From NCBI RefSeq assembly GCF_016908715.1, contig NZ_JAFBEK010000002.1:124001-188000 (forward strand): a stretch of 64,000 bases of DNA, in the 5' to 3' direction. Both the position numbers and the translations under genes were made by a program. This DNA comes from Leuconostoc rapi. GTDB taxonomy: Bacteria; Bacillota; Bacilli; Lactobacillales; Lactobacillaceae. The notes under the pieces were generated by a model, which was given only the letters and a program-made list of their open reading frames with translations, did not search any database and was not told the origin of the DNA. Of this stretch, positions 20,879 to 22,968 are shown piece after piece. The first letter of the stretch is position 1; every line of letters starts with the position of its first letter.

Positions 20879-21610
20879 CTAGAATGTTTCTGTTTCAATG
20901 TGTGTTAACTTTTCATGCCAATCCACGTCAGGATATTTGCGAGATAGTGCAGTTGCTAACACGCGTTTTGCTAGATTACCATTTCGCGTGAAAATGGGAC
21001 CATGGAAATATGAACCATAAACATTTCGATAAATAACGCCTTCAGTATTATCCATACCGTTGTTGCCGTTGCCAGAAATGACAGTCCCCAAAGCCCGCTC
21101 ACCTTGACCTAAGAATGTGCGACCTTGATGGTTTTCAAAACCATGGTAGGTTTCGCCAGTGTCATTATTTTTGATCACGATATTACCCGTGAGGCGTTTC
21201 CCTTTTAGCACTGTTAAGTCATCTTGATACATGTTCGTGGTGTAATGATCCATCACACCAATGCCATTGACTTTCGTGCCATCAGCCATAATCATATAGT
21301 GTCCAAGCAACTGAAAACCGCCACAAATGGCAAGTAAAGGACCACCATTTTCAATATACCGTCGCAATTGTTCAGTTTTTGTGACTAAATCTTGTGCAAC
21401 AATCGTTTCTTCATAATCTTGACCACCGCCTAGTAAGGCAAAATCAACTGTATCATCAACAAAAGTGTCTCCGAGAGAAACAAGGTGATAATTGACGTTG
21501 ACGTCAATTTGTTTCGCATAATAGGTCAGCGCAATAATATTGCCATAGTCACCATAGGTATTCATGAGATCACCATAAAGGTGGGCTACAGAAATGTTGT
21601 AATCTGCCAT
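20879..21610 (-). CDS. gatD: Lipid II isoglutaminyl synthase, glutaminase subunit GatD
   Basis: CobB/CobQ-type class I amidotransferase of 243 residues that releases ammonia from glutamine for MurT. The nucleophile is Cys96 (LAICGGFQLLGHY) and the catalytic His is about 203 (SYFHGPIF). The N-terminal HLYGDLMNTYGDYGN motif is diagnostic of GatD. It overlaps the murT stop by one base, so the two subunits are made together. The complex amidates D-Glu of lipid II at the membrane, which in Gram-positive cocci is required for efficient cross-linking. Confidence 0.95.
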   Translation of the reverse strand: MADYNISVAHLYGDLMNTYGDYGNIIALTYYAKQIDVNVNYHLVSLGDTFVDDTVDFALLGGGQDYEETIVAQDLVTKTEQLRRYIENGGPLLAICGGFQLLGHYMIMADGTKVNGIGVMDHYTTNMYQDDLTVLKGKRLTGNIVIKNNDTGETYHGFENHQGRTFLGQGERALGTVISGNGNNGMDNTEGVIYRNVYGSYFHGPIFTRNGNLAKRVLATALSRKYPDVDWHEKLTHIETETF

Positions 21611-22968
21611 TAGAATCCTCCTTTAATATAGCCAGCTGAACCTAACTGCTCACGGAGCTGTAACATTGCTGTATAAGTGGCCGCAATATATACTTTATCC
21701 GTTGGAAATGATTTGATTGCCTTTATGACTTGCGTTAAATCTTCGTAAATCGCTTGATCTGAGAACCCTGCCATTTTTAAGCGAACACGAAGGTCTTGAT
21801 AACGCTCACCACCCGTGGCAATAGCTTTGATGTTTGTGTCATGCAGCTTTTCAAACTCAGCATCCCAAATCCAACTTGTATCGATACCATCAGCATAGTT
21901 AGCATTTAATAAAGTTAATAGTGAAAAATCCTTTTTTTCAGTTAACATCATGTCAATGACAGAATTTGTGCCAACAGGATTTTTAATTAAAACAATCGTC
22001 ACATCTTTGCCGTCAACGTTGATTGTTTCTTGGCGACCAAAAATTTGTGCGTTTGATTCAAAAGCCTTTTTAATTTGTTCTGGGGCAACATTAAATTCAC
22101 GACCTACAGCAAAAGCTGTGAGCGCATTGTATATATTGTACAGACCGCCAATTTCAATTCTAAAAGGGGTGTTATCGATACTGAAAACTGAGTATTTTGG
22201 TGTTAGCTCATCCACACTGGTGACTTGATAGCGCAAAGCCGGGCGGGCAAATGAATCTGTTGTGCTGAAATATTTACCTAGATTACCGTATGTCATAAAA
22301 TCATAGTTAAGCACTGAGTGATCGGTAGGTGACAAAATGCCATCCGTGTTAATTGGTGCGGCACTAGGTGAATAATCCTCTGGTGAGATATGATTAAACC
22401 CGAAAAACTGGCGTTCGTTGCTAAAGTCGCCACGTGTGAAGATAGGTGAATCACCGTTGGCTAAAACAGTTGCTTGAGGTGCATGTTTGATACCAGCGAT
22501 AATTTTTTCATAAGTGGTGTAAATTTCGCCATAACGATCAAGCTGATCACGGAAAATGTTAGTTAATACAAACATTTTTGGTGCAATTGAGGCAGTAATT
22601 TTTTCAACGTTTGCCTCATCGACTTCAAGCACTGCAATTGGTTTTTTACCATTAGGCGACGGCTTGATTTTTGTGGTAACGAGAGTGCCAGTGATGCCTT
22701 GTATCATGTTTGAACCGGAGGGGTTTGTAATAACAGTATAGCCGCCGGCTTCCAATACGCGTGTAATTAGAGCGGTTGTTAATGTTTTTCCGTTTGTACC
22801 AGTTACAATAACAAGGTCAAAATTTTTCTGGATGCTTTGCAAAATATTTGGATCAATTGCGACTGCGATTTTACCAGGTAGACTTGTGCCACCACGATGT
22901 AACACATCATGTAAAAACCAATAAGTGCTTTTGGCCGTGATGCGTGCAAATGTACTTTTAAGTGTCAT
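21610..22968 (-). CDS. murT: Lipid II isoglutaminyl synthase, Mur ligase subunit MurT
   Basis: ATP-dependent amide-forming subunit, 452 residues. The Mur-ligase P-loop is VTGTNGKTLTT (55-65), the central ligase domain has LEVDEANVE, and the C-terminal DUF1727 domain contains the DTSWIWDAEFE segment that contacts GatD. In characterised MurT proteins a Cys4 zinc ribbon is inserted near residues 205-240. Here the loop is kept (NTDGILSP, YGNLGKY) but all four cysteines are replaced, by Ser213, Asp216, Ser235 and Asp238. The ribbon therefore cannot bind zinc in the usual way. A TATAAT-like box lies just upstream (22987-22992 on the plus strand). Confidence 0.94.
   Translation of the reverse strand: MTLKSTFARITAKSTYWFLHDVLHRGGTSLPGKIAVAIDPNILQSIQKNFDLVIVTGTNGKTLTTALITRVLEAGGYTVITNPSGSNMIQGITGTLVTTKIKPSPNGKKPIAVLEVDEANVEKITASIAPKMFVLTNIFRDQLDRYGEIYTTYEKIIAGIKHAPQATVLANGDSPIFTRGDFSNERQFFGFNHISPEDYSPSAAPINTDGILSPTDHSVLNYDFMTYGNLGKYFSTTDSFARPALRYQVTSVDELTPKYSVFSIDNTPFRIEIGGLYNIYNALTAFAVGREFNVAPEQIKKAFESNAQIFGRQETINVDGKDVTIVLIKNPVGTNSVIDMMLTEKKDFSLLTLLNANYADGIDTSWIWDAEFEKLHDTNIKAIATGGERYQDLRVRLKMAGFSDQAIYEDLTQVIKAIKSFPTDKVYIAATYTAMLQLREQLGSAGYIKGGF

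Follow-up and report, generated by a model that had tools for sequence, protein, structure and literature searches.

Two bacterial enzymes stand closest to the case described here, the MurT/GatD complexes of Streptococcus pneumoniae (6fqb) and S. pyogenes (9sq9, 9sqj). Both are the same two-subunit enzyme, a proposed antibacterial target, with the same ribbon insertion and the same framework, and their MurT chains are 45-48 % identical to the Leuconostoc MurT over 396-410 alignment columns; they carry a cysteine tetrad in the ribbon, whereas the Leuconostoc protein carries two Ser/Asp pairs. The S. aureus enzyme (6gs2, 6h5e, 7q8e), with about 30 % identity, differs in the same respect, as its MurT has a Cys4 ribbon in which zinc was seen (PMC6113224). 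In crystals of the pneumococcal MurT the tetrad showed disulfides and no metal, and a hydrophobic patch of the insertion was seen to sit at the GatD interface; replacement of all four cysteines by serine left 23 +/- 10 % of the activity, weakened the association with GatD, gave a protein that was degraded on storage, and was not tolerated in vivo (Morlot et al., 2018; PMC6085368). What the zinc ribbon does is called unclear in the S. aureus paper (PMC6113224), and the authors of the pneumococcal study see a need for more work (PMC6085368).

Morlot et al. (2018; PMC6085368) have noted Ser/Asp pairs in the MurT of Oenococcus, Weissella and Leuconostoc. The exchange of cysteine for Ser/Asp in Leuconostoc is therefore already published, and the MurT analysed in this work, from the genus Leuconostoc and with Ser/Asp pairs, is a member of that set. 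The points that are new refine a published remark and are not a discovery: one origin of the exchange, the S-x-T-D symmetry of the two knuckles, the decay of the set in one genus (g29), and an arginine at position 179. In a literature search made up mostly of papers free of subscription, MurT together with Leuconostoc returned, beyond Morlot et al., only the expression of MurT in Weissella cibaria, and 'cysteine tetrad' for MurT returned, from 2018 on, Morlot et al. alone; neither a metal analysis nor an activity of a natural cysteine-less MurT turned up there, and later subscription work may exist. A zinc-binding protein that likewise still functions once its zinc site is gone has been described, and there the zinc form is replaced by a second copy (PMC5912738), in contrast to Leuconostoc, where the one MurT above the cut-off in the source genome has changed in place. 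The pneumococcus does not tolerate the change from cysteine to serine in the ribbon, yet an entire lineage manages with Ser/Asp, and this Leuconostoc-group lineage makes it easy to compare ribbons of the zinc type with Ser/Asp and decayed ones.

The murT-gatD locus and its four ribbon positions

The window, by which we mean the whole stretch of 64,000 nucleotides analysed, contains murT followed by gatD, the two open reading frames overlapping by one base at 21610. The features referred to in this work are listed below; the limits of the ribbon insertion were taken from the pneumococcal MurT paper (PMC6085368).

21610..22968, minus strand: murT, 452 aa, start ATG (list of open reading frames, Pfam, PDB relatives)
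20879..21610, minus strand: gatD, glutaminase subunit, with Cys96 and His203 present (list of open reading frames, Pfam, motifs)
22237..22395, minus strand: ribbon insertion, about residues 192-244 of MurT, aligned to pneumococcal MurT residues 187-236
22321..22332, minus strand: first knuckle, S213-P-T-D216, at a CxxC position (alignment, clade comparison)
22255..22266, minus strand: second knuckle, S235-T-T-D238, at a CxxC position (alignment, clade comparison)
22432..22434, minus strand: Arg179 of MurT (column comparison of the clade with the others)
22783..22800, minus strand: P-loop GTNGKT, ATP-binding, MurT residues 57-62 (column comparison)
21880..21882, minus strand: Asp363 of MurT, aligned to S. 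aureus D349 and pneumococcal D355

Pfam and the PDB relatives identify the MurT product as the Mur-ligase-like subunit of lipid II isoglutaminyl synthase, with matches to PF08353 (MurT_C; E 1.4e-35, 122 bits, cut-off 25) and to PF08245 (Mur_ligase_M; E 4e-12, 47 bits, cut-off 24). The adjoining GatD matches PF07685 (GATase_3; E 8.6e-39, 133.6 bits), and its Cys96 and His203 lie within an ICGG and an HGP motif, respectively. The GTNGKT P-loop is in place, and Asp363, the counterpart of the S. aureus residue D349 which is the third residue of the shared catalytic triad (PMC6113224), is invariant in 67 of 67 aligned MurTs. A preliminary description of this DNA, made from the sequence alone, had taken GatD and the rest of MurT to be intact, and these matches and motifs bear it out. 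By its sequence the locus is an ordinary MurT/GatD that would amidate D-iGlu in lipid II as usual; only one MurT scored above the cut-off in the source genome.

The four ribbon positions read Ser213 (codon TCA), Asp216 (GAT), Ser235 (AGC) and Asp238 (GAT). In the pneumococcal chain 6fqb_A their aligned counterparts are the CPDC and CEGC pairs (phmmer against the PDB, E 5.5e-124), and the same search matched them to the cysteine pairs of the S. aureus chains 6gs2_B and 7q8e_A and of 9sq9_A. The replacement of the four ribbon cysteines by two Ser/Asp pairs, which was the central claim of the preliminary description, is confirmed by this alignment and by the read-out of the residues, and the flanking NTDG and YGNLGKY motifs are present as described. 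In place of the two CxxC knuckles of a Cys4 zinc ribbon the protein has SPTD and STTD, and as there is no cysteine anywhere in its 452 residues, no substitute cysteine is to be found within MurT. Activity of MurT without zinc, which the preliminary description took to be probable, is plausible. Both SxxD pairs were present in 19 of 19 Leuconostoc genomes, a sample which includes the source genome and takes in L. inhae, L. gelidum, L. citreum, L. carnosum and others; the MurT frame of one Leuconostoc draft (G004) is interrupted outside the ribbon positions, and it was left as is.

Distribution and origin of the cysteine loss

The survey comprised 131 MurT loci of the Lactobacillales, of which 105 came from the window's family (all 40 genera that the search of the family returned) and 26 from eight other families. 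Nine of the 40 genera sampled in the window's family lack the tetrad cysteines (65 loci) and 31 have CCCC (40 loci). Outside the Leuconostoc group CCCC was found at 63 of 66 loci, the three others being CCCG (L126), CCSC (L133) and CCCD (L127, a distant relative); L133 has an internal stop in the gene, and its third site depends on the alignment (CC-C or CCSC). Not one of the 65 loci of the group has a tetrad cysteine. SDSD is found at 55 of them, including one in g29, and the minor states are SDSQ at two loci (both in g39, a genus which includes 'Lactobacillaceae bacterium L1_55_11') and SDST, SNSD and SDSS (g18) at one each, while the six g29 loci read ADTK (two), ADTG, ANTA, ANTG and SDSD (one each).

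Trees were built without the ribbon columns, using FastTree and a 'quick' IQ-TREE run under a single-matrix model. In both, the 65 cysteine-less tips form one clade among the 131 Lactobacillales MurTs (support 1.0 in FastTree and 100 by SH-aLRT in IQ-TREE), the sister of which is g26, with CCCC. One change of state explains the loss of cysteine on the tree, and the fewest changes of residue over the 131 tips are two, three, three and nine at sites 213, 216, 235 and 238, respectively. The clade includes Leuconostoc, Convivina (g7), Fructobacillus (g2), Weissella (g18, including W. kandleri) and g29, which is probably Oenococcus and which joins g10 at a node with support of 0.936 (FastTree) and 74 (IQ-TREE); we take the clade to be what used to be called Leuconostocaceae. 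Since the cysteine-less tips fall together on trees that make no use of the ribbon, the loss most likely occurred once, in the common ancestor of the Leuconostoc-Weissella-Oenococcus lineage. The alignment across Lactobacillales that had been proposed as a check thus places the loss in a single clade (65 of 131 tips), as a trait both shared and old.

The 131 tips exclude the locus of draft G004 (L020/L021, broken frame), a split MurT (L136), twelve order or family loci that are all CCCC (L104, L106-L108, L110, L111, L113-L115 and L118-L120), second copies of included genomes (L001, L097, L098 and L208), and the named loci L141-L202, many of which lie on contigs already sampled. A wider tally that took in dropped rows and duplicates (193 rows) gave 101 CCCC, 81 SDSD and three SDSQ, one each of ADTK, CCCG, CCCD, CC-C and VVEV, and three rows without an aligned ribbon (L136, L197 and L201). 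The search of the order gave a MurT match in 113 of 148 genomes (E 1e-20), a selection of which was read; outside Lactobacillales the coverage consists of distant matches only, so that the probable single origin refers to Lactobacillales and further independent losses may exist elsewhere.

The other 35 of the 148 order genomes gave no MurT match at E 1e-20, and those listed belong to families f2, f7 and f8. In other families of the Lactobacillales, L126 (G316), L133 (G336) and L136 (G385) either have lost a single tetrad cysteine or have a MurT that is split in two or interrupted by a stop, oddities which may be draft errors or gene decay. Two loci of Candidatus Daviesbacteria (L194, L197) are MurT-like and have no alignable cysteine ribbon. 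In one g29 genome (G200, a draft that is 68 % complete) there was no convincing MurT match, the best having an E of 7e-4, and the gap is probably due to incompleteness.

Conservation and predicted fold of the ribbon

Outside g29 the Ser/Asp set is a strongly conserved replacement, and in g29 it is partly decayed. Among the 59 clade members outside g29, Ser213 and Ser235 are present in all, Asp216 in 58 and Asp238 in 55, with the full set at all four sites in 54; positions 217, 232, 236, 239 and 244 are variable in the same sequences. Thr215 (59 of 65 clade members) and Thr237 (53 of 65) are both new with the exchange, and both knuckles of the clade mostly read S-x-T-D, which makes a paired motif. 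It must be borne in mind that the 59 sequences share 139 invariant columns out of 452, so that invariance of Ser213 and Ser235 is not in itself rare. The two serines use both TCN and AGY codons, with at least one change of codon family at 213 and at least three at 235; this switching is not exceptional, because seven other conserved serines show zero to five such changes. Five of the six g29 members (L047, L203-L206) have A-D/N together with T-K/G/A, and in these the ribbon framework is retained. They are no longer Ser/Asp pairs of the kind reported by Morlot et al. (PMC6085368), and if g29 is Oenococcus the published remark needs a small correction.

The AlphaFold2 model of the window's MurT, made with an alignment of 67 MurTs, had a mean pLDDT of 89.9, with 86, 89 and 93 for the blocks over residues 211-240 and 73 for the block 201-210 at the start of the insertion; ribbon strands are predicted at 221-225 and 231-234, from alignments that include cysteine-bearing relatives and are biased towards their fold. 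For L205, which has the most decayed form (ANTA), AlphaFold2 placed strands at 222-226 and 232-235, with block pLDDT values of 80-92 over 211-240. Structure comparison with Foldseek and VIA-align, carried out with the window model, gave the S. pyogenes and S. pneumoniae MurTs as best solved matches: 395 of 398 residues were aligned with 9sqj_AAA (Z 44.2, rmsd 2.8) and 380 of 383 with 6fqb_A (Z 42.5, rmsd 2.8). With nearly all resolved residues of these two chains aligned, there is no room for an unmatched ribbon. Over the whole chain the rmsd to S. aureus MurT was 7.5-8.1, which is taken to reflect another domain angle. Structure prediction, the second check that had been proposed, thus has the ribbon fold kept and inserted in the middle domain, and in the models the ribbon persists without its cysteines.

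It is the zinc clasp that is gone, and the ribbon stayed; that the ribbon is dispensable does not follow. The preliminary description had held that the loss has a bearing on whether the ribbon is essential; a direct bearing of this kind is not supported, because the framework is kept, the fold is predicted and the clasp alone has been exchanged, and the pneumococcal change from cysteine to serine is not tolerated in vivo.

Explanations for the exchange

The reading that we consider probable is that two S-x-T-D knuckles took the place of the Cys4 zinc clasp in a single event in the ancestor of the clade. The knuckles would be closed without metal, the side chains of Ser and Asp forming hydrogen bonds to the turns and to each other, and the metal-free ribbon would keep offering its hydrophobic patch (Ile211, Leu212 and Val219 by alignment) to GatD; the enzyme would then be active and amidate D-iGlu in the normal way, with even the Ser/Asp set having partly decayed in the Oenococcus-like g29. 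Going by the predicted fold, the ribbon is most likely held by side-chain hydrogen bonds and still part of the GatD interface. In the five g29 sequences that are without most of the Ser/Asp set, the proposed hydrogen bonds are not strictly needed.

Neutral decay, in which the sites would have been unconstrained once the cysteines were lost and the ribbon would have been drifting since, accounts for the g29 states ADTK, ADTG, ANTA and ANTG and for the minimum of nine changes at site 238, but it is unlikely as an account of the clade, in which Ser213 and Ser235 are fixed in 59 of 59 sequences outside g29 while the neighbouring positions 217, 232, 236 and 239 vary widely. We are more doubtful still of a lineage-wide saving of zinc of which MurT would be one case. 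The sole L32 match in the source genome (L224) is without cysteine and looks like a zinc-free form, whereas Cys-pair zinc motifs are retained in its ClpX, topoisomerase I and RecR, so that the change in MurT does not belong to a complete loss of zinc sites; it should be noted that this comparison is based on four families in one genome, which are too few to decide.

A metal swap, in which two Asp and two Ser/Thr would act as hard ligands and bind Mg, Mn or Ca instead of zinc, would be in keeping with the occurrence of all four residues in 54 of the 59 members outside g29 and with the same S-x-T-D shape in both knuckles. It is nevertheless very improbable, since a required metal site should stay intact and this one frays: Asp238 is lost in SDSQ (two loci), SDST and SDSS and Asp216 in SNSD, together five of 59, and the replacement of the set in five of six g29 members with the framework kept argues further against a replacement metal site. 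We hold out equally little hope for a natural series leading from a zinc clasp (CCCC) through a clasp for another metal such as Mn, Mg or Ca (SDSD) to no clasp (ADTK/ANTG), fixed once and lost stepwise in g29. Lastly, an assembly or sequencing artefact, which the preliminary description had named as one of two findings that would overturn it, is ruled out for practical purposes, as nothing was found in its support and the exact SDSD state recurs at 55 of 65 clade loci and the SxxD pairs in every Leuconostoc genome sampled.

Comparison of the clade with the other MurTs revealed no obvious new metal ligand: among the 22 most divergent columns, none within residues 192-244 has a new Cys, His or Glu as the main residue of the clade. 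Those inside the insertion are 213, 215, 216, 218, 235, 236, 237 and 238, and 46 of the 65 clade MurT frames have no cysteine at all. Outside the insertion the divergent columns include Leu96, Val395, Met399, His376 (58 of 65) and, at position 24, an inserted residue which is His in 47 of 65 sequences, the two histidines being biased to the clade and distant from the ribbon in sequence. Arg179, which lies 34 residues ahead of the first knuckle, is present in all 65 cysteine-less MurTs, and the same position is Ser in 57 of the 66 others. In GatD, which was found at 115 of the 131 loci (65 of the clade and 50 others), a corresponding search for compensation gave 11 columns above the cut, none of them tied to the ribbon, for example Tyr22, Leu59 and Trp231.
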